Source: Micromonospora sp. CP22 (lineage in GTDB: Bacteria > Actinomycetota > Actinomycetes > Mycobacteriales > Micromonosporaceae). From it: DNA of 64,000 nt. Below, piece by piece: positions 8,736-62,224 of the stretch. The position numbers and the translations under genes are program-made. The notes under the pieces are model-generated. The model did not search any database, was not told where the DNA came from, and saw only the letters and a list, made by a program, of their open reading frames with translations. How positions within the stretch are numbered: position 1 is the stretch's first letter; each line of letters starts with the position of its first letter. The DNA lies in the NCBI RefSeq assembly GCF_009712475.1, contig NZ_VCJO01000002.1, positions 372,001 to 436,000 on the forward strand, given 5' to 3'.

Positions 8736-9815
8736 TCACTTCGGCTGGGCGGCCGAGGTGACCGTGACGGTGCCGGCGGCGATGTCCGCCTTCAGCTTGT
8801 CGACCTCGGCCTTCAGCTCGGCCGGAACCTTGCTGTCGAAGTCGTGGTACGGGGCCAGCGAGACGCCCTCGTTGGCCAGCGTGCCGACGAAGCCCTCCTC
8901 GGCGTTGAGCTTCTCGCCGCCAGCGGCCTTGAGGACGGCGTCCTTGACCGCACCCGGGATGTTCTTCACCACGGTGGTGATGATCGCCGGGCAGTCCGGG
9001 GTGCTCTCGCAGCCGTCGACGTCCACCCAGATGGTGTTGTACTTGCCACCCGAGGCCTTGGCCGCACCGGTGGTGCCGAGGCCGGCGCCGCCGGCGACCG
9101 GCATGATGATGTCCGCACCCTGGGCGACCAGCGCGTCGCTGACCTTCTTGCCCTCGTCCTGCTTGACGAAGTCGTTGGTGAAGGAGCCGTTCTGGGTCTC
9201 CTTGTTCCAACCGAGGGCCTGGACGCTCGCGCTCTTGGCCTCGTTGTAGTAGGCCACGCCGTCGACGAAGCCGTCCATGAAGATGGTCACCGGCGGGATC
9301 TTCATGCCGCCGTAGGTCGCCACCTTGCCGCTCTCGCTCATCCCGGCGGCGACGTACCCGGCCAGGAAGCCGGCCTGGGCGGTGTCGAACTCCATCGGGT
9401 AGACGTTGGCCACGCCCGGGTTGGCGTCGACGATGCCGAACTGCTGGTCCGGGTTCGCCTCGGCGATCTTCTTGGTGGCGTCCTGCATCAGCCCACCGAC
9501 GGCCAGGATGAAGTCGCAGTCCTGGTTGACGTACTGGGTGAGGTTCGGCTCGTAGTCCGCCTCAGCCTTGGACGCGACGTACTTGATGTCGATGTTGCTG
9601 TTCTCCGCCTTGGCCTCTTCCAGGCCCTTCCAGGCGGAGGCGTTGAACGACTTGTCGTCGATGCCGCCGACGTCAGTGACCATGCAGGCGGTGTACTTCT
9701 CGCCTGAACCGGCGTTGTTGTCCTCATCCGGAGCCTCGCCACAGGCGGCGGCGCTCAGTACGAGCCCACCCGCCGCGATGATCGAGGCGATCCGCATCCC
9801 ACGCACCGAGCGCAA
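8736..9815 (-). CDS. BMP-family nucleoside-binding lipoprotein
   Basis: 359-residue extracytoplasmic binding protein (BMP/PnrA family) delivering nucleosides to the ABC importer downstream. A lipoprotein signal peptide ends in the lipobox LSAAAC, followed by an acidic linker. The family's opening '[20 protein letters not shown]' is intact, as are '[16 protein letters not shown]' and '[13 protein letters not shown]'. The start chosen is TTG at 9815, six bases after AAGGAG; an ATG seven residues later would lack a ribosome-binding site. It is the first gene of the operon reading leftwards; a small inverted repeat (CACCGCG/CGCGGTG, about 9838-9856) lies in its leader. Confidence 0.93.
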
Positions 9816-10074
9816 GACGTCTCCTTCCCATTGCACACCGCGGGTTACGCGGTGGCAGCCCTTGAACCGGCCTGCGCCTTGCCGCCGGCGTCCCACGTTA
9901 CGGGAGGAGAGCGTACGCCCACGCCCACCTGCCGACCGACAATCGTGCAGGACTGTTGGAGGCCTGTTACCCCTACGTAATGCTTGGGTGGGCCCCGTCA
10001 CTCAGGGTGCCGGTAGACAGGTGGGCGTGTGCCGTAAAAGCGAGTTTTCTCCGTCGGCGCAGTGGGCCGCCCCG

Positions 10075-10425
10075 CTACCGCCAGAAGACCGCCACAGCCG
10101 CGTTGACCAGGGTGAGTCCCACGATGGCGAGGAAGTGCCCCCGGTTGACCTCAGTGCGCTTACGGGAGAAGAAGACCATGACGAAGATCAGCAGAGCGAT
10201 CACCAGCTTCGTCACAAGCTTCCCCGGCGCCGGCTCGTCGCCGTCGCGCAGCGGCGCGCTCAGCCCGATGCCGCTCAGCACCTGGATCACGGCCCCCCAG
10301 AGCATGGCGGCGTTGACCCGGAGCTTGCCGGTGAGGTATTGGGCGATCGCACCACCGAGCAGCAGCGCGAACCCGATCAGATGGACGTAGAGGAGGATGA
10401 GTCGAAGTGCTTCCACCCGACCCAT
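10075..10425 (-). CDS. Small integral membrane protein, function unknown
   Basis: 116 residues with four predicted membrane helices: 'LILLYVHLIGFALLLGGAIA', the 'AAMLWGAVIQVLSGIGL' segment, 'LVIALLIFVMVFFS' and 'LAIVGLTLVNAAVAVFW'. The N-terminal helix with a Y-x-H-L motif recalls small cytochrome-like or copper-resistance-type membrane proteins of actinomycetes, but no cofactor ligand pair can be argued. It lies alone between the nucleoside and maltose transport groups; no regulation is evident. Confidence 0.75.
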   Translation of the reverse strand: MGRVEALRLILLYVHLIGFALLLGGAIAQYLTGKLRVNAAMLWGAVIQVLSGIGLSAPLRDGDEPAPGKLVTKLVIALLIFVMVFFSRKRTEVNRGHFLAIVGLTLVNAAVAVFWR

Positions 10426-10512
10426 CCTGCCCTATCAACGACGTTTTGTAGTAGAGGCGCCCCCGGAAATCCGGGCTGCTCCCGGCACCGGCGACCGGCC
10501 GATCACGCCCGG

Positions 10513-11412
10513 TCAGCCCTTGGTGCCTCCGGCGGTCAGCCCGGAGACCAGGTGCCGCTGAGCGATCATGAACACCACACCGGCCGGCACGGTCACCAGG
10601 ACCGCCGCCGCCGTCAGGTACTCCCACTGCGGGTTGAACTGCGGCACGAACTGCTGGAGCCCGTACGCCAGGGTGAACGTGTCGTCGGTCTGGATGAACG
10701 CCGACGCGTACATCACCTCGCCCCAGGCGGTGAGGAAGGTGTAGAAGGCGGTGACCGCGATGGCCGGTCGGGCCAGTGGCAACACCACCCGCCAGAAGAT
10801 CGCGAACGGACCGCAGCCGTCCAGCGCCGCCGCCTCGTCCAGCGAGGTGGGGATGGAGTCGAAGTAGCCCTTGAGCATCCAGGCGCAGAACGGCACCGCG
10901 ATGGTCAGGTACGCGATGACCAGAGCCGGCAACGTGTTGATCAGACCGAGCCGGGCCATGATCGTGTAGATCGGCACGATCAGGATGGCCGCCGGGAACA
11001 TCTGGGTGATCAGGAAGGTCATCATCAACGGCCGACGCCCGGGGAAGTTGAACCGGGACACCGCGTATCCGGTGGTGGCCGAGAAGAAGATGCCGATCAG
11101 CATCGTGAACGCCGCCACGATCACCGAGTTCAGCAGCCACCTCGGGAAGTTCGTGTCGAACAGCACGTAGCTGTAGTTGGCCAGGGTCGGGTCCTTGACC
11201 AGGGTCAGCTCGCTGCTCTGCACCGCGTACCCGGGTTTGAACGAGGCCAGCAGCACCCAGACGATCGGGCCGAGCGCGATCAGCGAGGCGATGACCAGCG
11301 TGCCGTGCAGCAGCAGGGATTTCACCGGGCTGCGCCGGCTGCGGCCGGGCCGGTTGCCGACCTTCGCCGGGGCGGCCGGAACCGCCGCTGCGGGAGTGGT
11401 CAGTTGGCTCAT
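10513..11412 (-). CDS. malG: Maltose/maltodextrin-type ABC transporter permease MalG
   Basis: 299-residue inner-membrane permease of the MalG family with a ~35-residue cytosolic N-terminus and six membrane helices. The EAA coupling loop is visible as 'DEAAALDGCGPFAIFWRVVLP', where the ATPase docks, and the C-terminus 'SGLTAGGTKG' is typical of actinobacterial MalG proteins. malF stops 1 bp upstream, so the genes are co-translated. The importer ATPase is not encoded here; in actinomycetes a single MsiK-type ATPase encoded elsewhere usually serves several such importers (inference). Confidence 0.9.
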   Translation of the reverse strand: MSQLTTPAAAVPAAPAKVGNRPGRSRRSPVKSLLLHGTLVIASLIALGPIVWVLLASFKPGYAVQSSELTLVKDPTLANYSYVLFDTNFPRWLLNSVIVAAFTMLIGIFFSATTGYAVSRFNFPGRRPLMMTFLITQMFPAAILIVPIYTIMARLGLINTLPALVIAYLTIAVPFCAWMLKGYFDSIPTSLDEAAALDGCGPFAIFWRVVLPLARPAIAVTAFYTFLTAWGEVMYASAFIQTDDTFTLAYGLQQFVPQFNPQWEYLTAAAVLVTVPAGVVFMIAQRHLVSGLTAGGTKG

Positions 11413-11413
11413 G

Positions 11414-12430
11414 TCACCACACCTCGCCTTGCTTGCGCAGCGCCCGCCGGTAGAACAGCGAGAACACCAGCAGGATCGACAGGATCAGCACGCCGTACGT
11501 GGACGCGAGCGAGTAGTTGCGGATGCCCTCGAACGCCGCCCGGAAGGCACCGGTCACCAGGATCTCGGTCTCGCCCGCCGGCTGCCCCTCGGTCACCAGG
11601 AAGATGATCGGGAACATGTTGAACGTCCAGATCGTGCCGAGCAGGATCACCGTCATGCTGACCGGGCGCAGTCCCGGCAGGGTGATGTTGCGGAACCGCT
11701 GCCACGCGGAGGCACCGTCGATCTCGGCGGCCTCGTACAACTCGCCGGGAATCGTCTGCATCCCGCCCAGCAGGGCGACCATCATGAACGGCACGCCGAG
11801 CCAGATGTTGGTGATGATCGCGGTGAGCAGCGACGTCCACTGGTTGGCGAACCAGTCGACCGAGTCGATGCCGAGCGAGGTGAGCAGCGAGTTCGCCAGG
11901 CCGAAGCGCTCGTTGAAGATGAACTTCCAGGCGAAGGCGCTGACGAAGGCCGGTACCGCCCAGGGCAGGACCAGCAGCACCCGGTAGAGACCGCGACCCC
12001 GCATCGGACGGTTGAGCATCACGGCCAGGCCGAGGCCCAGACCGTAGTGGAACACGACGCACCCGAGAGTCCAGATCAGCGTGATGCCGGTCCACTGCCA
12101 GAAGTCGCCGACATTGCCGCTGAGCACGTTGATGTAGTTGTCGAGACCGACGAACTCCCACCGGTTGGGGTTCTCGGCACAGACCTCGCCACCGGTGATC
12201 GACCTGGTGCAGATCTCTGCGGCCTGGTTGGCCTCGGTGAGGTTGGTGAGGGAGATCCAGATCCCCCGGACCAGCGGGTAGAAGATCAGGACTGCCAGGA
12301 CGATGACGACGGGCAGCACCATCGCCCAGGCGTACCAGTGTTGCTCCCAGCTGCGGCGCAGCCGGGAGGGACGAGCGGATCGGCCGGGCGGCGGCGAGGG
12401 GGGCGCCGGTTCGGCTGTCACGGTGGTCAT
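11414..12430 (-). CDS. malF: Maltose/maltodextrin-type ABC transporter permease MalF
   Basis: 338-residue permease. A proline-rich cytosolic N-terminus is followed by 'WYAWAMVLPVVIVLAVLIF' and further membrane helices. A periplasmic insertion (residues ~75-100) holds paired cysteines in 'EICTRSITGGEVCAENP', frequent in actinobacterial MalF. The EAA motif is 'EAAEIDGASAWQRFRNITLP'. The start ATG at 12430 has GGAG upstream; the frame is open far upstream over malE but this is not coding. Pairs with malG immediately downstream. Confidence 0.9.
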   Translation of the reverse strand: MTTVTAEPAPPSPPPGRSARPSRLRRSWEQHWYAWAMVLPVVIVLAVLIFYPLVRGIWISLTNLTEANQAAEICTRSITGGEVCAENPNRWEFVGLDNYINVLSGNVGDFWQWTGITLIWTLGCVVFHYGLGLGLAVMLNRPMRGRGLYRVLLVLPWAVPAFVSAFAWKFIFNERFGLANSLLTSLGIDSVDWFANQWTSLLTAIITNIWLGVPFMMVALLGGMQTIPGELYEAAEIDGASAWQRFRNITLPGLRPVSMTVILLGTIWTFNMFPIIFLVTEGQPAGETEILVTGAFRAAFEGIRNYSLASTYGVLILSILLVFSLFYRRALRKQGEVW

Positions 12431-12454
12431 CAGCTGCGCTCCATGAGGGGAGGT

Positions 12455-12497
12455 CCGGCAGGGCCGGTGACCGGTGCCGGTCACGCGACCCTGCCGG
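12455..12497 (-). terminator. malE-malF intercistronic hairpin
   Basis: A compound hairpin: outer arms 12455-12463 and 12489-12497 (CCGGCAGGG/CCCTGCCGG) enclose an inner stem GTGACCGG/CCGGTCAC at 12467-12484. It lies between malE and malF and probably limits read-through or protects the malE transcript, so that the binding protein outnumbers the permeases (inference from position). Confidence 0.65.
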
Positions 12498-12519
12498 GTG
12501 CCGAGAGATCCGGCTGAGG

Positions 12520-13821
12520 TCAGTTCTCGTAGGAGGGAACGACCTCGGCCTTGTACTTCTTCGCGACGGTGTCCAGCGCGGCCTTCGGGTCCTTGTTCTG
12601 GATCAGGACCTCGGTGGCCATCTGGTCGAGCGGGCCGAAGAACTGACCGGCCTCGGGGATCCACGGACGACCGACGCCGGCCTCGACCACCGGCTGGAAG
12701 GCGGCGACGGTGGGGTTGTTCTTCACCGCGTCGAGGTCGTACGCCGAGCTGCGGGTCGGCAGCAGGCCGAGCTTCTCGGACAGGAACGCCTGCGACTCGG
12801 CGGAGCTCATGAACTTGACGAACGCGACGGCGGCGTCGACCTTCTCCTGCGGCATGCCGGACCAGATCACGTAGTTGTGGCCGCCGACCGGACCACCGGC
12901 GCGGGTCGAGCCGCCCGGCACCGGCGCGATGCCCAGGTTCTCCAGGCCGCCGAAGTCCGGTGCCTGCTGGACGTTGTTGACCTCCCACGGCCCGTTGATG
13001 ATCATGGCGACCTTCTTCTCCTTGAAGAGGGTCATCATGGTGCCGTAGGCGTCGTTGGCGGACGGCTTGGCAGCCGCCCCGCTGTCGATCAGGTCCTTGG
13101 CGATCGCCAGCCCGGCCGCGTTCTGCTCCGAGTTGATGATGATCTTCTTGTTCGCGGCGTCGACCAGGTCGCCGCCCTCGCCGTACATGAAGGGCAGCAG
13201 GAAGTAGCCGGCCGGGTTGAGGTAGAGCCCCTCGGCGTCGGTCTTGTCCTTGATGGTCTTCGCCGCCGTCTTCAGCTCGGCCCAGGTCTTCGGCGGCTCG
13301 CTGATGCCGGCCCGGTTCAGCAGTTCCTTGTTGTACATCAGCGCGAGGCTGTCGGTGACCTGAGGAACGCCGTAGGTCTTGCCGTCGAACTTGTTGGAGG
13401 CGAGCGGGGTCTCCAGGAAGTCGGACTCGTCGGCGAGCAGCTCGGAGCCGTCCAGCGCGTACAGGTGACCCAGCGAGGCGAACTCGGGCACCCAGGCGAC
13501 CTCGGCCCGCAGGATGTCCGGGGCACCGGTCTTGGCCTGCGCGGCGGTCTTGAACTTGTTCTGCGCCTCACCGAACGGGACCGACTGGTAGTTGATCTTG
13601 ACGTTCGGGTAGGTCTGGTTGAACTTGGCGATCAGCTCCTGGAACGCCGGGCCCTCGTTCTTCGGGTCCGAGGTGTCCCACCAGGTCAGTTCTGCGGTGA
13701 GGGAGGCGGGGTCGACCGCCGGCTGCCCCTCGGCCGCCTTCTCCTCGCCGCCGCACGCGGCGACGGAAAGGGCGAGAGTGGCAGAGGCGAGTACGGCGAT
13801 CCCCCTGGCTGTGCGGCGCAT
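12520..13821 (-). CDS. malE: Maltose/maltodextrin-type substrate-binding lipoprotein MalE
   Basis: 433-residue extracellular solute-binding protein (family 1). The signal peptide ends with lipobox LSVAAC followed by a Glu-rich linker. Mature sequence features include 'LTWWDTSDPKNEGPAF', 'GAPDILRAEVAWVPEFASLG', 'YGVPQVTDSLALMYNKELL' and 'VAMIINGPWEV', all typical of maltose/trehalose-type binding proteins. The start ATG at 13821 follows TAGGAGCGAAC. It is the first gene of malE-malF-malG and is divergent from the LacI regulator. The neighbouring alpha-glucosidase suggests an alpha-glucoside ligand; maltose, maltodextrin or trehalose cannot be told apart from sequence. Confidence 0.92.
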   Translation of the reverse strand: MRRTARGIAVLASATLALSVAACGGEEKAAEGQPAVDPASLTAELTWWDTSDPKNEGPAFQELIAKFNQTYPNVKINYQSVPFGEAQNKFKTAAQAKTGAPDILRAEVAWVPEFASLGHLYALDGSELLADESDFLETPLASNKFDGKTYGVPQVTDSLALMYNKELLNRAGISEPPKTWAELKTAAKTIKDKTDAEGLYLNPAGYFLLPFMYGEGGDLVDAANKKIIINSEQNAAGLAIAKDLIDSGAAAKPSANDAYGTMMTLFKEKKVAMIINGPWEVNNVQQAPDFGGLENLGIAPVPGGSTRAGGPVGGHNYVIWSGMPQEKVDAAVAFVKFMSSAESQAFLSEKLGLLPTRSSAYDLDAVKNNPTVAAFQPVVEAGVGRPWIPEAGQFFGPLDQMATEVLIQNKDPKAALDTVAKKYKAEVVPSYEN

Positions 13822-14151
13822 GTTCGCTCCTAGGTTGCCTGCCGGGTAACGGCGGGACAGTAGCAAGAACTTTCGAAACTAGAAACCCCTTGCGAACACC
13901 GCTGCAACAACCGTGCCCCATCCGCAACTCCGGTTACCGACAAGTGGCCGCCGTCGGGGCATTTCGCCCACAGAATCCGGTGACCGAACTCGCCGTATCG
14001 GTCACCATCAGCGCAGCATGTGCGGACCGAACGTGCCCTAACGGCACGGCTGCCGCGCACTGGCGAGGCGTGCCCTCGACACACCCTGCCGGGTCCTGCA
14101 ACTTCTTGCTGGCCACTGCGCAAGAAGATGGTGGTGAGCTACAGTGCCGCC
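13822..14151. promoter_or_regulatory. Divergent malE/lacI control region
   Basis: 330 bp without a gene between the divergent malE and LacI-regulator starts. It contains a TTTCGAAA palindrome (13871-13878) about 50 bp from malE, a nearby CCTTGCGAAC half-site (about 13888-13897), and a perfect inverted repeat CTTCTTGC (14102-14109) / GCAAGAAG (14120-14127) just upstream of the regulator. The CTTGCGC/GCGCAAG core recurs as a full palindrome before the alpha-glucosidase, so these are candidate operators of the local LacI protein. Apart from these I see nothing in the stretch. Confidence 0.55.
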
Positions 14152-15231
14152 ATGCGCGCTCGCCTGTCCGACATCGCCCAGCAGGCCGACGTCAGTGAGG
14201 CCACGGTGTCGCGGGTGCTCAACGACCGCCCCGGCGTGGCCCCCGAGACCCGGCAGGCCGTCCTGACCGCCCTCGACGTGCTCGGCTACGAGCGCCCCGC
14301 CCGACTGCGCAAGCGCAGCGCCGGGTTGGTCGGTCTGGTGGTTCCGGAGCTGGACAACCCGATCTTCCCGGCGTTCGCCCAGATCATCGAGTCGGCGCTG
14401 GCCCCCACCGGCTACACCCCGGTGCTGTGCACCCAGACCCCCGGCGGCGTACGCGAGGACGAGTACGTCGAGATGCTGTTGGACCGACAGGTGTCCGGCA
14501 TCGTCTTCGTCTCCGGCCTGCACGCCGACACCGCCGCCGACCACGACCGGTACCGCACCCTGCTCGCCCGCCCGCTGCCGATCGTGATGATCAACGGGTA
14601 CGCGCCGGGCCTGCCCGCGCCCTTCGTCTCCTGCGACGACCGGGAGGCCGCCGAACTGGCGGTGGCCCACCTGGTGGCTCTGGGCCACCGCCGGATCGGT
14701 CTGATCACCGGACCGGACCGCTTCGTGCCGGTGCAGCGCAAGGTCAGCGGATACAAGTCGGCGATGGAACGTCTCGCGGGTGTGGACGAACCCGAGTTGG
14801 CCGAGCTGACCGAGCTGTCGCTGTTCGGCGTCGAAGGCGGGGAGGCGGCGGCGGCCCGGTTGATCGAGCGCGGCGCCACCGGCATCGTCTGCGGCTCCGA
14901 CCTGATGGCCCTCGGTGCCATCCGGGCCGCCCGACAGCGGGGCATGTCGGTGCCGGAGGACCTCTCGGTGGTCGGCTACGACGACTCACCGCTGATGGCC
15001 TTCACCGACCCGCCCCTGACCACCATGCGCCAGCCGGTGGCCGCCATGGCGATCGCCGCGGTGCGGGCCCTGGTCGACGAGATCAACGGCCATGGCGCCC
15101 CACACTCGGAGTACCTGTTCCGGCCGGAACTGGTGGTGCGGGGGTCGACGGCGGTGGCCCGGCAGGACGGTACGCCGAGCGGTCCCAGCCGGCAGCGGCC
15201 GGCCCCGCCGGCGATCGCGGTCCCGGCGTAG
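14152..15231 (+). CDS. LacI-family transcriptional regulator (MalR-like)
   Basis: 359 residues: N-terminal LacI helix-turn-helix 'LSDIAQQADVSEATVSRVLN' followed by the hinge and a periplasmic-binding-protein-like sensor domain ('LVGLVVPELDNPIFPAFAQ', 'GYDDSPLMAFTDPPLTTMRQP'). It probably represses malEFG and the alpha-glucosidase flanking it and is released by an alpha-glucoside. The start ATG at 14152 begins right before the HTH; an ATG at 14128 in frame is possible, neither has a clear ribosome-binding site. An inverted repeat at 14102-14127 overlaps its promoter, suggesting autoregulation. Confidence 0.88.
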   Translation: MRARLSDIAQQADVSEATVSRVLNDRPGVAPETRQAVLTALDVLGYERPARLRKRSAGLVGLVVPELDNPIFPAFAQIIESALAPTGYTPVLCTQTPGGVREDEYVEMLLDRQVSGIVFVSGLHADTAADHDRYRTLLARPLPIVMINGYAPGLPAPFVSCDDREAAELAVAHLVALGHRRIGLITGPDRFVPVQRKVSGYKSAMERLAGVDEPELAELTELSLFGVEGGEAAAARLIERGATGIVCGSDLMALGAIRAARQRGMSVPEDLSVVGYDDSPLMAFTDPPLTTMRQPVAAMAIAAVRALVDEINGHGAPHSEYLFRPELVVRGSTAVARQDGTPSGPSRQRPAPPAIAVPA

Positions 15232-54340: not shown

Positions 54341-54604
54341 GCCACAATCCTGACAGTCGACTCAGGACAGCCGTGCTCCGGGTCACTGATCGACCGAACG
54401 GGAACACCCATCCGGTCGGCAACGGCTACGCTGGGGCACCACCCGCGCCGGATCCACAGCAGCGTCCACACCGCACGGACGTTCGCGGGGTGAGAACCTC
54501 GCACCGGAACAGCCGCAGGTCGGAAAGTGTCGGCGGACTCTGGCATGGTCGACACCATGTGCGGTCGCCCGCTTGCTGAGAGTCACTCATCGATCGGCTC
54601 GGAG

Positions 54605-56101
54605 ATGCCAGTCCTTGACCTCGCCGGGTGTGCCGCGACCCTCGGGGTGAGCAGACTTCAGGTGCAACGGTGGGACTCCACCGGGCAGTTCGCCCCACCT
54701 CGCACCGGTCAGGGCACCCACCGTCGATGGTGTCGCACCGACCTCTACGAATGGGCGGCGACCTCTCCGCTGCACCTGGCCGACCGGGTGCCGCTGCGCC
54801 ATTGGCCGACAGCCACCGGCCCCCGTCCCTACCTGGGCGCCCGTCTGGTCGCCGGCAACGTCGCGCTGTTGTGGGCCACCCAGGTGGGCACGATGGCCGT
54901 CGTGTGGCCGGTCTCCGGGCGGCGCCCCACACCACGCGCCCACCTGCCTCCCTTGCTGCGTGCCTGGGGTGTGGTGGGTGCGGCGGCGGTGGCCCCCGGG
55001 CTCGGCGACGGTGGGCCGGACGTCGATCCGCTGCCGATGACTCCAGCGCAGGACGAGGCCGCATTGAGCTGGACGGACCTGTCGGCGCTGGTCGGCCAAC
55101 CACTGCCGTACTGGCCCCTGCCACTGCGGCGGGAAGTGCTGATCACTCGCTGGCGGCCCGGCCAGCCGACGGTCCAGGCGCTCGCCGGGGATTCGGAGCT
55201 GGACACCGACGCGCTACTTGAGCTGGCCATCCTGTACCCGACGGACCATCCGGCCGCCCGCCTCCTGGTCACACTCGCCCGCACCATCCTCCGCCGGAAA
55301 GCCGAGTCCGCGGGCCGGGAGATCGACACCGTGGCGCCGACGGTGGCTGCCGGCACCACCGTCGTCGCCGCCCGGCCGCTGCCCGTACCGCTGGTCGATC
55401 GGGACCAGCTGGACGAGGCCACCCGCCGTGCGGGCTGGCGGGAGATCCTGTGTCGGCAGGACGCCCTCGCCGAACACTGCCTGTCGCAGATGTTGAAGTG
55501 GGACAACGGCGCGGACTGCCCCTTCGGCCATCGGTTCACGGTCAGGCGCGCGAGCCCGACCGCCGACGAGTGGACCGCACGGCTGGAGCCGACGGTGCGT
55601 ACCGCCGCGTTCCGGCTGCTGGGCGACGTCGGCACCGACCACGAGACCCTGCGTGACCCGGCCACCGAAGCTCCCGTGGTCCGCCGCCGCGACGGCGACG
55701 GGACCGAGTTGCGCGCCGCCGCACCGCAACGGTTACCCACGACCTCGCCGTTGGCCGAGATCATCCTCGACCACCCGATCTGGGTCCGCACCGCCGACGG
55801 CACGCTCTACCCCGCTCCGCAGGGCTCCTTCTGGGGAATCGGCTGGGGGTATCCGGGCTTCGGGCCGAGCTGTCTCGCCCTGCTGATCGACCGGCTGCTC
55901 GACGACATCAACGCCCAGGCGGCGGACAGCGCTACCGGAGCCCCGGACGGCCTGCGCCGGCTCACCCGGATCACGATGCCGCGCGGCACTGTACTGACCC
56001 GCAGGCAGCTTGAGTCCGCGCGGGCAGGCACCTGGCGACCCACCCGGGACGACTTCCCCGTGCACGAAGGGCGGCACGATGCGCCTCCCCGATTTATGTG
56101 A
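54605..56101 (+). CDS. HTH (MerR/excisionase-like) protein with large uncharacterised C-terminal region
   Basis: About 498 residues if the ATG at 54605 is used. GGAG touches it directly, and ATG 54545/54557 or GTG 54527 are alternatives. The N-terminus is a MerR/excisionase-type HTH, 'GCAATLGVSRLQVQRWD ... THRRWCRTDLYEW'. The rest is cytosolic with no recognised domain. Near the C-terminus 'SFWGIGWGYPGFGPSCLALL' recalls the Gly-Tyr-x-Gly-x-Gly-Pro pattern of small uncharacterised actinomycete proteins (DUF6166-like). Its stop is 36 bp from the NRPS gene on the same strand, so it is probably co-transcribed and may be a regulator or a dedicated accessory enzyme. Confidence 0.72.
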   Translation: MPVLDLAGCAATLGVSRLQVQRWDSTGQFAPPRTGQGTHRRWCRTDLYEWAATSPLHLADRVPLRHWPTATGPRPYLGARLVAGNVALLWATQVGTMAVVWPVSGRRPTPRAHLPPLLRAWGVVGAAAVAPGLGDGGPDVDPLPMTPAQDEAALSWTDLSALVGQPLPYWPLPLRREVLITRWRPGQPTVQALAGDSELDTDALLELAILYPTDHPAARLLVTLARTILRRKAESAGREIDTVAPTVAAGTTVVAARPLPVPLVDRDQLDEATRRAGWREILCRQDALAEHCLSQMLKWDNGADCPFGHRFTVRRASPTADEWTARLEPTVRTAAFRLLGDVGTDHETLRDPATEAPVVRRRDGDGTELRAAAPQRLPTTSPLAEIILDHPIWVRTADGTLYPAPQGSFWGIGWGYPGFGPSCLALLIDRLLDDINAQAADSATGAPDGLRRLTRITMPRGTVLTRRQLESARAGTWRPTRDDFPVHEGRHDAPPRFM

Positions 56102-56137: not shown

Positions 56138-58504
56138 ATGGCACCTGGTCCATCCGGGACGACAGCCCTGCCACCGTGGTCCCTGCCCGGCGCACAGCCG
56201 GGCCGCGTCCGCCTGACCCGCGAGCTGCCGGTGGCGCTGCGCGACGCACTCACCGGGGTACGCGACGACACCGCCGCCCGCGAGCGGATGCTGCTCACCG
56301 GTTGGCTCGCGGTGTTGTCGCGGTCGGTCGGCGAGCCCACGGTGAGCACAGCGGTGATCGGTGCGACCGGGGGTCTCGACCAGGTCAGCAGCCAGGTCGG
56401 TGACCTCACCTGGGCCGACCTGGCAGCAGCGCTGCGCCGGGTTCCGTTGGACGGTCGACCACACAGCGCCGTCGACGCCCGGGGCACGCTTGCCGACGAC
56501 ACCGCCGACCTGGTGGTACGGCTCGGACCCGGCTGCGCCGGGTTGGAGCTGGCCTACGACCTTGAGCACGTCGGACACGACGCCGCCCAGCGGGTGCTCG
56601 GCTACCTGCTCCACGCCCTGCGACGGCTTTCGGAGACGCCGGACGCGGCAGTGGATCTCGGCGACATGTTGAGCCCCGAGGAGCGACGGCGTCAGCTCGT
56701 CGACCTGTGCGGTGCCCGGGTGCACAACGGTCCCGACGGATTCGTCGCGGCTTTCCAGTCGCGGGCGGCGGCCGTACCCGACCGTCCGGCGGTCCGCCAC
56801 CGCGAGGGCACGTTGACCTACGGCGAACTCGATCGTGCCTCCCGTCGGTTGGCCCATCGCCTGCGCGGGCTCGGCGTCCGCGACGGCGACACGGTGGCCG
56901 TCGTCAGCGACCGGCACCTCGACTGGGTGGTGGCGATGCTGGGCGTCCTACGCGCGGGCGCGGTGTACCTACCGGTGCGGCCGGACTTCCCGCCGGCACG
57001 GGTGCAGGGCCAACTCGACCGGGCCTGCTGTCGGTTGGCGCTGGTCGACGAACCCGGCTCGATCCTCATGTCCGACGTCGTCGGCACCGACGGCTGGTCC
57101 GGCGCGGTGGCGCCGATCGCCGACTCCGGCGCCGACCCGGTCCCGGTCGACCTGCCGCCGCCGACCGGTGAGCGTCCCGCGTACGTGTACTTCACCTCGG
57201 GCTCGACCGGGCAGCCGAAGGGTGCCGTCTGCGCCCACGCCGGGATGATCAACCACTTGTGGGCGAAGGTCGACGACCACGACCTCGGGCCCGACGACGT
57301 GGTGACTCAGACCGCCTCGCAGTGCTTCGACATCTCGCTGTGGCAGGTCTGTGCGCCCCTGCTGGTCGGTGGCACCTGCGTGGTGGTCGACGTCGACCGG
57401 CAACTCGACGTGGCCGCCTTCACCGCGCTGCTGCTGCGGCACCAGGTGACCACCATCCAGGTCGTACCCTCCTATCTGGAGGTGCTGCTCACCCACCTGG
57501 AGACCGGTACGGTACGGCTGCCCCGGCTCCGGTCGGTGTCGGTGACCGGTGAAGCGCTCCGCTCGGACCTGGTCCGTCGCTGGTTCGCGGTGCTGCCGGA
57601 AGTGCGGCTGCTCAACGCGTACGGAGCGACGGAGACCTCCGACGACGCCATGCACGAGGTGCTCGACGGGCCCGGGGAGCGGGACCTGCCCGTGGTCAGC
57701 GTCGGCCGGGCCCTGCGCAACATGCGGGTCTACGTCGTCGACGACCGGTTGCGCCTGATGCCGGAGGGTGCCCGGGGTGAGATCGTGTTCGCCGGGGTGT
57801 GCGTGGGGCACGGCTACCTCAACGACCCGCAACGCACCGCCGAGGTGTTCACCACCGACCCGTACCATCCGGGCGAGCGGCTCTACCGATCCGGTGACCT
57901 GGGCCGCTGGCTGCCGGAAGGGCGGCTGGAGTTCCTGGGCCGCCGCGACCACCAGGTCAAGATCCGAGGTCTGCGGGTGGAGGTCGAGGAGGTCCGGGCC
58001 GCGCTGGCGGCGGTACCGGGGGTGCTCGACGCCGCTGTCGTCGCCGTCGGGGAGGGCAACCGGGCCCGGCTGGTGGGCTTCCACGTCGCCACTGACGAGA
58101 TCTCGTCGGACGACCTCGACAAGCAGCTCGCCACGCGGCTACCGGACTACATGATCCCGGCACACCACGTCCGGCTCGACGCGCTGCCGCTCAACGACAA
58201 CGGGAAGGTCGACCTGGCCCGACTGCGGCGGCAGGCCCGGGAGGCGACCGCCGGTACCGCCGTTGCCGAGCCGCCACACACGGCGGTCGAGCGCCGCCTG
58301 GCACTGGAGTGGTCCGAGGTGCTGGGGCTGCCGGTCGAGCGGGTGGGCCGGGACGACGACTTCTTCGAGTCCGGCGGCACCTCGCTGGCGGCGATCCACC
58401 TGCTGACCCGGCTGGGACACCGGCTGTCGCTGTCCGACATGTTGGCCGGTCCGACACTGCGTGAGATCGCGCTTCGTCTTGAGGACACCGACGTCTCCGG
58501 ATAG
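56138..58504 (+). CDS. NRPS adenylation-carrier protein (A-PCP) with condensation-domain remnant
   Basis: 788 residues. Residues 1-210 resemble the C-terminal lobe of a condensation domain ('LLTGWLAVLSRSVGE', 'LELAYDLEHVGHDAAQRVL', 'LSPEERRRQL') but lack HHxxxDG. The A domain (225-690) carries all core motifs: A3 'YVYFTSGSTGQPKGAV', A4 'FDISLWQ' with Asp235-equivalent, A5 'NAYGATETSDD', A7 'YRSGDLGRW', A8 'GRRDHQVKIRGLRVE', A10 'NDNGKVDLARL' with the essential Lys (about 687). The PCP (712-780) has Ser in 'FFESGGTSLAAI'. No thioesterase. My reading of the specificity residues is DIWQSTADDK, consistent with a short basic amino acid. Convergent with the ATP-grasp gene, 33 bp apart. Confidence 0.92.
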   Translation: MAPGPSGTTALPPWSLPGAQPGRVRLTRELPVALRDALTGVRDDTAARERMLLTGWLAVLSRSVGEPTVSTAVIGATGGLDQVSSQVGDLTWADLAAALRRVPLDGRPHSAVDARGTLADDTADLVVRLGPGCAGLELAYDLEHVGHDAAQRVLGYLLHALRRLSETPDAAVDLGDMLSPEERRRQLVDLCGARVHNGPDGFVAAFQSRAAAVPDRPAVRHREGTLTYGELDRASRRLAHRLRGLGVRDGDTVAVVSDRHLDWVVAMLGVLRAGAVYLPVRPDFPPARVQGQLDRACCRLALVDEPGSILMSDVVGTDGWSGAVAPIADSGADPVPVDLPPPTGERPAYVYFTSGSTGQPKGAVCAHAGMINHLWAKVDDHDLGPDDVVTQTASQCFDISLWQVCAPLLVGGTCVVVDVDRQLDVAAFTALLLRHQVTTIQVVPSYLEVLLTHLETGTVRLPRLRSVSVTGEALRSDLVRRWFAVLPEVRLLNAYGATETSDDAMHEVLDGPGERDLPVVSVGRALRNMRVYVVDDRLRLMPEGARGEIVFAGVCVGHGYLNDPQRTAEVFTTDPYHPGERLYRSGDLGRWLPEGRLEFLGRRDHQVKIRGLRVEVEEVRAALAAVPGVLDAAVVAVGEGNRARLVGFHVATDEISSDDLDKQLATRLPDYMIPAHHVRLDALPLNDNGKVDLARLRRQAREATAGTAVAEPPHTAVERRLALEWSEVLGLPVERVGRDDDFFESGGTSLAAIHLLTRLGHRLSLSDMLAGPTLREIALRLEDTDVSG

Positions 58505-58537: not shown

Positions 58538-59752
58538 TCAGCCGATCGCCACCGGCAGCGCCGCGACCGCCCGGTCGGCTCGCGCGCCGGCCTCCGCCGC
58601 TGATCGCCCCTGGGCGATCACGTAGCCGAGCCGTTCCAGGAACGAGCCGAGCCGGACGATCCGTCGGCCCGGCCGCGCGGTGACCACCGCGTCGACCACA
58701 CCGGGCAGCGCCAACGCTGACGCCGGGTCGGGCACCGTCTCGACGACACCGTCCGCCGTCGGCACGAGGAAGCGGACACTGGCGTACCCGTTGCGCACCG
58801 TCTGCGGTGGTGGGACACGACCCGCGCTGCGCGCCACCAGCTCCGCGATCAGGTCCTGTCCGGTGGCGACCCGGATCGCCTGCGGGATCATGCCGCCGGC
58901 CAGCCTGGGATTCACCTCCACCACGACCGCCCGGCCGCCGGTCACCCGTAGCTCGACGTGGGCCGCGCCCCACCGCAGCCCGAGCGCGGCGAGCGCGGCG
59001 CGGGCGCTCTCCGCGAGCAGCTCGGCGGTGCCGGACTCGACGGGGGCGGGAACATCGTGCCCGATCTCAAGGAACCCCCGGGTCTCGTCGACATGCTTGG
59101 CTACCACCATCCGCACCTCGCCGTCGAGCAACTCGACGGAGAACTCCGGGCCGGGCAGGTAACGCTCGACCAGCACGGCGGACGGCAACGGCAGGCCCCG
59201 CTCGTCGGTCCTGGTGGCGAGCAGGTCGGCAGCGTGGGCGGCCACCCCGCGCAGGTCGTCGCAACGGCGTACCCCGATCGAGCCCGAACGACTGACCGGT
59301 TTCACCACCACCGGCAGGCCCAGTCGCTGCGCCGCGTCGACCGCGTCGGCGGCCGACGTCACCACCTGGAACCCGGGTGAGGCGACGCCGGTGGCCGCGA
59401 ACCGCGCACGCTGGACGCTCTTGCTCCGGGCAGCGGCCAACCGGTCCGGGTCCTCCCCCGGCAGGTCGAGGGCGCGAGCCACGGCGGCGGCGGTGGCGAT
59501 GAAGTACTCGGAGCTGGAGGTCACTCCGACGACCTGCTGCGACCGGGCCAGGTCACGGCAGTGCGCCAGCACCGTGGGCAGCGCCGCCGTGTCGCACCGG
59601 TGCACCGGCAGGTCCAGCTCCGCGGCGTACGGGTAACGGGCCGGATCGGCGCACAGCAGCGCCGGGACGAGACCCAGGTCGCGGGCTCGTTCCGCGAAGA
59701 GGCGACCGCTGCCGGTCGTGTTGCTCTCCACCAGGATCAGCAGCTCAGCCAC
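58538..59752 (-). CDS. ATP-grasp ligase (amino-acid ligase type)
   Basis: 404 residues of the ATP-grasp superfamily, closest in pattern to BacD/carnosine-synthase-like enzymes that join amino acids through an acyl-phosphate. The N-terminal domain starts 'LLILVESNTTGSGRLFAERA'. ATP-grasp features are 'PVVVKPVSRSGSIGVRR' (Lys and Gly loop), 'ERYLPGPEFSVELLDGE', and the Mg site 'VVEVNPRLAGGMIPQAIRVA' (Glu, Asn). The GTG at 59752 overlaps the lyase gene by 8 bp, so the two are coupled. Substrates unknown; the context suggests ligation of a non-proteinogenic amino acid. Confidence 0.9.
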   Translation of the reverse strand: MAELLILVESNTTGSGRLFAERARDLGLVPALLCADPARYPYAAELDLPVHRCDTAALPTVLAHCRDLARSQQVVGVTSSSEYFIATAAAVARALDLPGEDPDRLAAARSKSVQRARFAATGVASPGFQVVTSAADAVDAAQRLGLPVVVKPVSRSGSIGVRRCDDLRGVAAHAADLLATRTDERGLPLPSAVLVERYLPGPEFSVELLDGEVRMVVAKHVDETRGFLEIGHDVPAPVESGTAELLAESARAALAALGLRWGAAHVELRVTGGRAVVVEVNPRLAGGMIPQAIRVATGQDLIAELVARSAGRVPPPQTVRNGYASVRFLVPTADGVVETVPDPASALALPGVVDAVVTARPGRRIVRLGSFLERLGYVIAQGRSAAEAGARADRAVAALPVAIG

Positions 59753-61181
59753 GACAGATCGCCTCGCTGGCCGCAGCGAGCGCATCGGACGCCCGGTTCC
59801 ATCCCCGGCGCAGGTCCCGCAGCTCCGCGCGCAGCCGGTGCCGCAGCGTCCAGGCGGCGGCCAGTGCCTCCGCCCGGCTGCCGGGGCCACCGCCGAAGCG
59901 GGCACGGTCGGCGGCGGTACGCGGGTCGATCCGCGCGAACCCCTCCGGTGGCCAGTCCGCGCCCTCGTCCACTGCCCGTAGCACCGCAGCACCGACCCGG
60001 TGGTGGGCCTCGCGGAACGGCACCCCCTGGCGGACCAGGTCGTTGGCGACCGCCGTGGCCTCGACGAAGCTGCGGGCGGCGACGGACTCCATGGTGTCCG
60101 GACGTGGCCGAGCCCCCGCGACCACGAGGGCGGCCAGGGCCAGCACGTCCCGCGTGGTCCGCAGTGCCGGCCCGACCGACGCCATCGCCTCGGTGCCGAC
60201 CTCGATCGAGTTGGTGAACGGCGCCGAGCGGATCGCGCTCGTCGCACTCACCCAGGCACCCAGCACCCGGGTGGGCCGCGCCTTGAGGTGTTCCAGGACG
60301 AAGGCGTTGCGCTTCTGCGGAAGCGCCGAGGAGCCGCCCACCAGCCAGTCGGGAAAGTGCACGTAACCCAGGTCGGCCGCACTCCACAGTTGCAGGTCGG
60401 CGGCGAGCCGCGACACCGTGACACCCAGGTTGGCGGCGACGCCGAGCGCATCGAGGGAGGCGTCGCGGGAGGCGATCGCGTCCACGGCGTGCAGGGGACC
60501 GGAGGCGAAGCCCAGCAACGCCGCCGTTCGCTCGGTGTCGAGGTCGATGTCGGTGCCGGCCACCGCGTGTGCGCCGAGCGGGCATCGACGGATCGAGCGG
60601 AGACAGGCCACCATCCGGTCGAGTTCTCGAAGCAGGGCGAGCGCCACCCCGGTGAGGTAGTAGCCGTAGGTGATCGGCATGGCCGGTTGGTAGTGGGTGT
60701 GGATCGCCATCACGTCGTCGAGGTGGCGGCCGGCGGCGGCGAGCAACGCGGTGACCAACCTGCCGCCCTCGGCGACCACGTCGGAGCAACGCTCCCGCAA
60801 CGCCAGGAGCGTGGTGGTGGCGTTCAGGTCGTTGCGGGACCGGCCGGTGTGCAGCAGGCCACCCACGTCAGGGCCGCAGCGACGGGTGACGGCCTCCTCG
60901 TAGGCGAGGTAGATGCCACGCGGCCGGGGAAGCGACAGCACCGGGGCGAAGCCTTCGGCCTCGATCTGACGTACGGTGCGCAGCAGACGGGCCGCCTTCT
61001 CGCCGACGATGACCCCGCGCTCGGCCAGCATCACCAGGTGCGCCCGGTCGACCTGGGCGATCAGGCGCAGCTGCGCCCGGTCGACCACCGGGTCGGGGGC
61101 CTCGTAGCAGAGCCGCTGTGCCTTGCCGGCGAGGGGGCGGGCGATTCGGCCGGTGTCCGACGACGCGAGCGGTCCGCTCAT
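59745..61181 (-). CDS. Argininosuccinate-lyase-family C-N lyase
   Basis: 478 residues of the aspartase/fumarase superfamily, argininosuccinate lyase branch, which split N-substituted aspartates into an amine and fumarate. Signature regions: H111-T-G-R-S-R-N-D118, 'HTHYQPAMPITYGYYL' with the catalytic-His region (161-163), 'PLGAHAVAGTDIDLDTERTA', and the mobile loop G283-S-S-A-L-P-Q-K-R-N carrying the catalytic Ser. The loop differs from the usual GSSxMPQKKNPD of arginine enzymes, and the gene sits between an SbnA-like synthase (ATGA overlap) and an ATP-grasp ligase rather than with arg genes. A specialised substrate is therefore likely; argininosuccinate itself cannot be excluded. Confidence 0.88.
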   Translation of the reverse strand: MSGPLASSDTGRIARPLAGKAQRLCYEAPDPVVDRAQLRLIAQVDRAHLVMLAERGVIVGEKAARLLRTVRQIEAEGFAPVLSLPRPRGIYLAYEEAVTRRCGPDVGGLLHTGRSRNDLNATTTLLALRERCSDVVAEGGRLVTALLAAAGRHLDDVMAIHTHYQPAMPITYGYYLTGVALALLRELDRMVACLRSIRRCPLGAHAVAGTDIDLDTERTAALLGFASGPLHAVDAIASRDASLDALGVAANLGVTVSRLAADLQLWSAADLGYVHFPDWLVGGSSALPQKRNAFVLEHLKARPTRVLGAWVSATSAIRSAPFTNSIEVGTEAMASVGPALRTTRDVLALAALVVAGARPRPDTMESVAARSFVEATAVANDLVRQGVPFREAHHRVGAAVLRAVDEGADWPPEGFARIDPRTAADRARFGGGPGSRAEALAAAWTLRHRLRAELRDLRRGWNRASDALAAASEAICRG

Positions 61182-62224
61182 CCGGCGAGGGCCTGTTCGC
61201 CGCAGACCTCGGCCAGCGTGCGACGTCCCCACCGCATCCAGGTCCAGTCGGGATCGCCGGACGGTGTCGGCACCTCCCGGGGGCGGACATCGGCGGGCAC
61301 CCGACGACGGGGGTCGGCATCGAGCCAAGCCTCGTCGTAGACGGTGTCGATGTAGCGGTCGCCCTGGTCGGGCAGCATCACCACGGTGACCTTGCCGGGG
61401 TGGGACGCCGCCCACCAGCGGGCCACCGCCAGAGCCGCCCCCGAGGTCGGGCCGTGGAACAGCGCATGCCGGCGGTGCAGCCGGCGGGTCTCCCGATAGG
61501 CGACCCCGGGCGGGCACCAGTGCACCTCGTCGAAGACCGTGTGGTCGAGGTTGCGCGGCAGCACGCTGTTACCGAGCCCACGCAGCTCCCGTACCTGGTC
61601 GGGCTGGCCGAACAGCACGCTGCCGGGGGTGTCCACCCCGACGGCGACCAGGTGTGGAAAGCAGGCCCGCAGCGCGGTCGCGGTGCCGCACATCGAGCCG
61701 CCCGAGCCGACCGGCCCGATCAGGGCGTCGACCCGGCCGAGCTGGCCGGCGAAGTGGTCGAGGAGCACCGCGTAGGAGGCGGGGTTGCGCGGATTGTCGT
61801 ACTGCCTCGGCCAGAAGTGGTCGGGATAGCGCTCGCGGATCTCGGCGAGGCGGGTCAAGCGCATCGTCTGGAACTCCCCGCGCGGCGACGGCGTCGCGCA
61901 CATCTCGATGCTGGCACCCAGGTCAGCCAGGCGGCGGCAGAGCCGCCGGTCCATCACCGGGTCGGTGACCAGGGTCAGCGGGCGGCGGATCAGGGCGGCC
62001 TTCACGGCGAGCGCCACGCCGAAGGTGCCGCTGGTCGACTCCACGATCATCGTGTTGGGGCCGATCTCGCCGGAGGCGAGGGCCGCGTCGACGATGTGAT
62101 GCGCGGGCAGCATCTTCATCAGCTTGAACGAGGCGCCCCAGAGCGAGCCGCCGAGCGGCACCACGGCCGGCATCAGATCCATGGCGACCGCGTCGACGCC
62201 CGCTTCCGGAGGGACACATGTCAC
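61178..62224 (-). CDS. SbnA-like PLP-dependent synthase (cysteine-synthase fold)
   Basis: About 348 residues of fold-type II PLP enzymes, most like SbnA, which builds the 2,3-diaminopropionate precursor from O-phosphoserine and glutamate. Shared features: 'IVESTSGTFGVALAVKAALI' (PLP phosphate loop), 'GPVGSGGSMCGTATALR', 'VDTPGSVLFGQPDQVRELRG' and 'LPDQGDRYIDTVYDEAWL'. The N-terminus is short and the canonical N-P-G-G-S-x-K-D-R around the PLP lysine is replaced by 'GASFKLMKMLPAHH'; K37 aligns best with the Schiff-base lysine. The GTG at 62224 is 12 bases after GGAGG; ATG 62182 is the alternative. It heads the operon with the lyase and ATP-grasp genes. Confidence 0.85.
   Translation of the reverse strand: MTCVPPEAGVDAVAMDLMPAVVPLGGSLWGASFKLMKMLPAHHIVDAALASGEIGPNTMIVESTSGTFGVALAVKAALIRRPLTLVTDPVMDRRLCRRLADLGASIEMCATPSPRGEFQTMRLTRLAEIRERYPDHFWPRQYDNPRNPASYAVLLDHFAGQLGRVDALIGPVGSGGSMCGTATALRACFPHLVAVGVDTPGSVLFGQPDQVRELRGLGNSVLPRNLDHTVFDEVHWCPPGVAYRETRRLHRRHALFHGPTSGAALAVARWWAASHPGKVTVVMLPDQGDRYIDTVYDEAWLDADPRRRVPADVRPREVPTPSGDPDWTWMRWGRRTLAEVCGEQALAG

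Follow-up and report, generated by a model that had tools for sequence, protein, structure and literature searches.

A kinase-less DabABC-like operon in Micromonospora sp. CP22, predicted to supply 2,3-diaminopropionate without SbnB

O-Phosphoserine is the known substrate of SbnA, the pyridoxal phosphate (PLP)-dependent synthase that is partnered by SbnB in staphyloferrin B biosynthesis. Another set of genes, dabA, dabB, and dabC, has been assigned to the formation of diaminobutyrate from threonine in friulimicin and laspartomycin biosynthesis, with DabA being likened to cysteine synthases (PMC4052310; this and all further citations refer to excerpts of the papers), and the gene functions given for a friulimicin-like cluster with dabA, dabB, and dabC include cysteine synthesis and argininosuccinate cleavage (PMC11117518). 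The excerpts searched contained no enzymology of a synthase/lyase/ATP-grasp route in friulimicin-type producers. Here, we analysed a 64,000-nucleotide stretch of Micromonospora sp. CP22 (the window; positions 372001–436000 of contig C22 of the 5.85-Mb genome), in which three overlapping genes at window positions 58538–62224 (the trio) encode an SbnA-like PLP synthase, an argininosuccinate lyase (ASL) homologue, and an ATP-grasp ligase, next to a gene for a protein composed of an adenylation (A) domain and a peptidyl carrier protein (PCP). In our judgement, the trio is probably a DabABC-like operon for 2,3-diaminopropionate (Dap), which would be built from O-phosphoserine and, as we predict, nitrogen supplied by aspartate, and the A-PCP protein would load Dap in trans for a thiazoline-type peptide synthetase.

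A preliminary description of the window had reported three overlapping genes facing an A-PCP gene, and both this gene set and the end points of the trio proved exact. The synthase and lyase genes overlap by 4 bp and the lyase and ATP-grasp genes by 8 bp, and the A-PCP gene is convergent with the trio at a distance of 33 bp from the ATP-grasp gene (Table 1).

Table 1. Features of the window considered in this study (window positions).
Feature	Position	Strand	Details
SbnA-like PLP synthase (DabA-type)	61178..62224	-	GTG start, 348 aa
Argininosuccinate lyase (ASL) homologue (DabB-type)	59745..61181	-	ATG start, 478 aa
ATP-grasp ligase with L-amino-acid-ligase C-terminal domain (DabC-type)	58538..59752	-	GTG start, 404 aa
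A-PCP protein, without thioesterase	56138..58504	+	788 aa
524-aa protein	54527..56101		no family match in library scans

To place this arrangement, one genome per species was scanned, and the best 80 of the 165 synthase relatives were compared as loci, a trio being called where a lyase (>150 bits) and an ATP-grasp protein (>90 bits) accompanied the synthase. The trio was complete at 61 of the 80 related loci, so its arrangement is not a product of chance. Three loci carry a partial trio cut by a contig end (L016, L053, and L062), L073 is cut off at once, and the trio is absent from the fetched stretch at 15 loci (14 rhizobial loci and L072). Only two of the 63 lyase-bearing loci lack the ATP-grasp gene, both at contig ends. 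The order of the genes differs between loci, and in L056 ligase and lyase form one protein (820 bits to the ATP-grasp-ASL fusion family PRK02186, cut-off 625), which suggests that the three proteins act as one unit. Lyases of this group (counted at E values up to 1e-90) were detected in 21 of the 354 Micromonosporaceae genomes and, among the 392 Streptomyces genomes sampled, in 32; three of the Micromonosporaceae lyases are of the window type, defined by at least 60% identity (100%, 89%, and 73%, the window's own included), and no window-type trio was found among the 392 Streptomyces genomes.

One of the homologous trios lies at a friulimicin-type locus (G030), whose genes point to Actinoplanes friuliensis. 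There, genes for an A-PCP protein and a GHMP kinase come after the trio, and the genome's only methylaspartate mutase gene (4022451) lies about 7 kb away. The only gene of the cyclodeaminase family PF02423 (4069003) is located 54 kb from the trio, after synthetases with two, six, and two A motifs, the first of which has four HHxxxDG motifs in addition to its two A motifs. Given this distance, and with the ASL homologue directly beside the synthase, we tentatively read DabB as the ASL homologue. Inactivation of dabA and dabB in the friulimicin producer is said to abolish the diamino acid, and feeding to restore it. The gene set of G030 fits the published friulimicin plan, in which GlmA/GlmB serve methylaspartate formation and the trans-acting ATTe protein PstA serves the CT module at position 2 of a CAT-CT-CATE synthetase (C, condensation; T, thiolation; E, epimerization; Te, thioesterase; PMC9113097). 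The window synthase and lyase are 56% and 49% identical to their G030 homologues and the A-PCP protein is 50% identical over 644 residues, and the ATP-grasp proteins are homologous as well. Unlike G030, the window has no kinase gene, its A-PCP protein has no thioesterase (TE) domain, and it belongs to a thiazoline-type cluster. Because the synthase of such clusters has already been assigned to a 2,3-diamino acid, the earlier proposal of a new route does not stand at the level of the genes: homologous trios are widespread, and dabABC are already assigned to diaminobutyrate. Judged by its genes, the window holds a kinase-less, TE-less form of a known kind of operon.

SbnA (TIGR03945) is the best library match of the synthase, and the score of 209 bits falls below the family cut-off of 350, compared with 410 bits for an SbnA on contig C10 of the same genome. 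The catalytic PLP-binding lysine (K37 in the aligned protein P0121) is conserved in every one of the 27 aligned relatives; an altered motif first hinted that this lysine was lost, which was rejected when the alignment placed it at K82 of the long open reading frame (ORF), equivalent to K37 of P0121. Equivalents of SbnA R132 and Y152 are also retained, in the residue numbering and roles that we assume for SbnA.

A phmmer search started from the SbnB of the same genome (E values up to 1e-3) detected no SbnB-like ORF in the 123 kb that comprise the window and the 59 kb to its right, the left side being covered by the genome search only. This agrees with the absence of SbnB noted previously. The host genome encodes one SbnB above the family cut-off (391 bits, contig C10) and a second match below it (74 bits). 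The contig C10 gene overlaps that of the canonical SbnA (L090, G000:C10:16301-17278) and lies beside a peptide synthetase gene, as expected for a second, ordinary Dap route. With this route located elsewhere in the genome and none near the window, the window synthase appears to belong to a different, SbnB-free system, in which a lyase and an ATP-grasp ligase take the place of SbnB. Among the 81 loci compared, a single SbnB-like ORF was present, in Micromonospora sp. CB01531 (L088:9040-17385), where a single peptide synthetase cluster holds kinase, synthase, ATP-grasp, and lyase genes beside an SbnA-like/SbnB-like pair. The joint presence of kinase, trio, and pair suggests that the trio and the pair make different products, as if both diamino acids were needed.

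The sequence of the lyase suggests a C-N lyase that would act on something other than argininosuccinate. It matches argH (TIGR00838) with 257 bits, under the cut-off of 279.5, and its best NCBIfam match is the ASL half of PRK02186 (NF002563; 389 bits, whole-protein cut-off 625), of which the ligase half is the best match of the ATP-grasp protein (302 bits); in the window, the two are separate genes in the reverse order. The family carries the name argininosuccinate lyase only, and we know of no tested function for it. Lyases or lyase halves from 12 trios were compared with two ArgH proteins (the window being represented by P0001, which differs from it by one residue). The window lyase retains SRND, T-H, and GSSxxPQKxN, and thus the superfamily loop GSSxxPxKxN and the set of residues that we take to bind the substrate at its fumarate side. 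In all 12, the ArgH stretch 'YDRDMQEDKE', whose Tyr, Gln, and Lys presumably bind the arginine side, and an N-terminal segment are exchanged for other conserved residues, with PFTNSIEVGTEA in place of the arginine-side stretch in ten of them and a close variant in the other two. As the fumarate-side residues are kept and the arginine-side stretch is gone, the substrate should be an N-succinyl compound other than argininosuccinate, and N-(2-amino-2-carboxyethyl)-aspartate fits; aspartate as donor with release of fumarate is likewise consistent with these residues. The idea that the trio lyase could be the only ASL of the genome was rejected, since the genome has its own ArgH on contig C53 (564 bits); its PurB, FumC/AspA-like, and PcaB-like proteins are also separate from the trio lyase. 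The ATP-grasp protein matches Pfam LAL_C2, and its nearest solved relative by sequence is the L-amino acid ligase BL00235 (3vot).

At 48 of the 61 trio loci, the fetched stretch contains a gene for a GHMP kinase, which the preliminary description had overlooked. No library model gave this protein a name; it bears the motif G-E-x-x-Q-G, which we take to be that of the L-threonine kinase PduX, and it is presumably a threonine kinase that supplies O-phosphothreonine. No GHMP kinase of this family was found in the 123-kb stretch or in the genome of the window, with best matches of 24–25 bits in this genome and that of M. andamanensis compared with 296, 412, and 439 bits in three kinase-bearing genomes. 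In the next window-type genome (G235), the kinase gene directly follows the A-PCP gene. Twelve genomes have no kinase at the trio locus: five lack it altogether (E values up to 1e-10; M. andamanensis among them), and seven encode one elsewhere. Five kinase-less Streptomyces loci (L046, L047, L050, L051, and L055) keep the gene order of the kinase-bearing loci, with the kinase gene and the adjacent mutase gene gone. A mutase gene is found in the fetched stretch at 11 loci, each with a kinase gene. Since mutase-family genes occur elsewhere in four of the five genomes with these kinase-less Streptomyces loci and are absent from the kinase-bearing L035 genome, mutase and kinase are associated by position only.

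Two further arrangements concern the kinase. The 14 rhizobial loci (L075–L087 and L089; about positions 9000–14300 in most) encode a GHMP kinase and a DabA-type synthase and have no lyase or ATP-grasp gene in the fetched stretch, which backs the link between kinase and synthase and indicates that the synthase products can be used in other ways. They also carry a second PALP enzyme and genes for LuxR and LuxI (checked in Pfam with one representative each), possibly for a quorum-sensing-linked amino acid product. In Terrihalobacillus (L072:133-4546), a synthase and a kinase are followed by two weaker ATP-grasp matches (83–84 bits), without a lyase.

The loss of the kinase is mirrored in the A domain. 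At the pocket positions that we take over from GrsA, including 330/331, the window A domain reads D-I-W-Q-S-T-A-D-D. This code resembles those for diaminobutyrate and diaminopropionate, among which DVWQMIGDDK is listed for the beta-hydroxy form (PMC12283262), and by itself it does not distinguish Dap from 2,3-diaminobutyrate (Dab). An A domain with a code of the D-I-W-Q-x-x-A-D-D type (tested as DIW plus DD) was present in the fetched stretch at 39 of the 61 trio loci, of which 38 passed a stricter pattern. We compared 41 A domains, 33 from kinase-bearing and seven from kinase-less loci, and set L048 (loop TEVCDDTVH) aside because its contig ends within the A-PCP gene and kinases are encoded elsewhere in its genome. 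The pocket loop reads TEV(S/C)DDTMH in 33 of 33 kinase-bearing rows and TETSDD(A/P)MH in all seven kinase-less rows (the window, L010, and the five Streptomyces loci), so that V and T at two loop sites in the former correspond to T and A/P in the latter. Among the 477 gap-free columns, a perfect separation of the two sets is seen in only three, two of which are in the pocket loop, flanking code positions 330/331. In both the synthase tree and the A-domain tree, the kinase-less rows form two separate groups nested inside the kinase-bearing ones and share the same loop, from which the pocket change appears to have arisen twice, together with the loss of the kinase. Corresponding comparisons, limited to columns in which the kinase-bearing rows have a majority residue, gave one perfectly separating column in the lyase (position 70, E vs. 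D/N/S/A/Q) and none in the ATP-grasp protein. These patterns suggest that loci with the kinase make Dab and loci without it Dap. Given the absent kinase and the changed pocket, the expected product of the window is Dap derived from O-phosphoserine, which favours the Dap product claimed in the preliminary description over its methylated analogue, Dab. In keeping with this pattern, laspartomycin/glycinocin (LpmA) reportedly carries Dap where friulimicin carries Dab, and we regard the five Streptomyces loci, which differ from the window in their surroundings, as probable glycinocin-type clusters.

The substrates and chemical steps of the following scheme are proposed from the observed gene content, conservation, kinase absence, pocket changes, and lyase residues. 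At the PLP synthase, the amine of aspartate would take the place of the phosphate of O-phosphoserine. The resulting N-(2-amino-2-carboxyethyl)-aspartate would then lose fumarate through the action of the lyase, which leaves Dap; aspergillomarasmine synthase and EDDS (ethylenediamine disuccinate) lyase offer similar chemistry for the two steps, in systems that differ from the window in products and contexts and of which only the EDDS lyase entries were compared by sequence. Since the ATP-grasp ligase accompanies the lyase across loci and the two are in some cases one protein, it probably works on the same intermediate. The A domain would then activate Dap and tether it to its own PCP for loading in trans. 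The previous claim that a diamino acid arises in the absence of SbnB and is taken up by the A-PCP protein is supported. In most relatives, the GHMP kinase would supply O-phosphothreonine and the same enzymes would yield Dab, while the lineage of the window, having no kinase, would fall back on the O-phosphoserine of primary metabolism. A general pathway to 2,3-diamino acids, free of SbnB and NAD, with nitrogen from aspartate, release of fumarate, and an ATP-dependent step of a new kind, in which the kinase gene is the switch between Dab and Dap and the A-domain pocket followed it twice independently, is a tentative proposal that we hold to be a serious possibility and not yet the expected outcome.

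Other readings of the trio were weighed against this scheme. The likeliest of them, if unlikely in itself, is that the window trio makes Dab as in friulimicin, with O-phosphothreonine coming from an unrecognised kinase or threonine being used directly. The kinase occurs in most relatives with the same A-domain code, including the close relative G235, and the dab product has been described as derived from threonine (PMC4052310), both of which agree with this reading; the genome of the window has no GHMP kinase of the family (its own best match is the 24-bit one), and its pocket loop is unlike that of all 33 kinase-bearing rows, which speaks against it. We give slightly less credence to a PurC/PurB-like sequence, in which the ligase would put aspartate on a carboxylate and the lyase would shed fumarate to leave a primary amide, with ammonia or another nucleophile serving the synthase. 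In favour of this reading, purine and arginine synthesis likewise pair a ligase with a lyase, L056 and the PRK02186 family have both in a single protein, and the ligase belongs to the amide-forming L-amino acid ligases. However, an amide would explain neither the 2,3-diamino acid of friulimicin nor the free carboxylate that the A domain needs.

The preliminary description had also considered an aminopolycarboxylate metallophore, with the lyase working in the addition direction; such a compound would be similar to EDDS, ethylenediaminesuccinic acid hydroxyarginine (EDHA), or aspergillomarasmine, and the lyase would add an amine to fumarate. The lyase matches 6rx8/6g3d (158–159 bits), entries that are listed as argininosuccinate lyase and that we take to be EDDS lyase, and the cluster beyond the window encodes a thiazolinyl imide reductase, an enzyme usual in siderophore clusters. 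However, a true ASL is the better match to the lyase (184 bits), which reads T-H where 6rx8 has T-Q, and a building block for a peptide is indicated both by the A-PCP protein and by the relatives of the friulimicin type. With little to support it beyond the enzyme families involved, we consider the metallophore very improbable.

Several observations weigh against Dap formation from O-phosphoserine and aspartate. The main hole in the scheme is the ATP-grasp ligase, which the aspartate/fumarate chemistry does not require. In the synthase family, a glycine replaces the residue that we take to be SbnA S185, and no perfectly separating column between kinase-less and kinase-bearing rows was found in the synthase among the columns listed. 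The L047 locus is kinase-less, and a kinase is encoded on another contig of its genome, while 22 of the 61 trio loci have no A domain of the expected code in the fetched stretch. A second Dap route would also be partly redundant with the genome's SbnA/SbnB. From the literature, DabB was likened to the deaminase VioK and SbnB and not to ASL, and the laspartomycin dab genes were given to diaminobutyrate (PMC4052310). Ammonia was named as the nucleophile for mureidomycin-type diaminobutyrate and poly-Dap (PMC3179956, PMC10714638, PMC4668381). The excerpts searched, which did not extend to the primary friulimicin, malacidin, EDHA, laspartomycin, and pacidamycin papers, contained no aspartate/fumarate route for the trio genes.

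The A-PCP protein and its surroundings indicate where Dap would be used. The N-terminus of the protein resembles a remnant of a C domain by eye. A Pfam TE is present in the L040 homologue and absent from the window protein, in which 48 residues follow the PCP compared with about 290–310 in G235, L041, and L051. The cluster extends to the right of the window, where a lone C domain, a cytochrome P450, and a second O-methyltransferase are encoded together with a synthetase (two A domains and two of the condensation type), a thioesterase, and a thiazolinyl imide reductase (363 bits against a cut-off of 189). From these genes, Dap probably enters a thiazoline-type peptide. This part, at positions 436001–495000 of contig C22 (L007–L009), is a large peptide synthetase cluster, in which extra P450, C-domain, and luciferase-like genes were seen by eye. 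M. andamanensis shares the neighbourhood of the window (82–95% conserved), including the only relative (82%) of the 524-aa protein among the 81 loci compared. The N-terminus of the latter resembles a MerR-type helix-turn-helix by eye; as a candidate for a substitute kinase it was rejected, as it has no family match and the kinase profile gives no match there.

Thus, the comparison offers a testable set, with two natural kinase-less lineages alongside many kinase-bearing ones and matched changes in their A domains. If the aspartate/fumarate route is true, nitrogen would be placed on an amino acid side chain in a manner known from arginine and purine synthesis, a one-gene rule would predict Dap or Dab in peptide antibiotics, and the enzymes would provide biocatalysts for 2,3-diamino acids.

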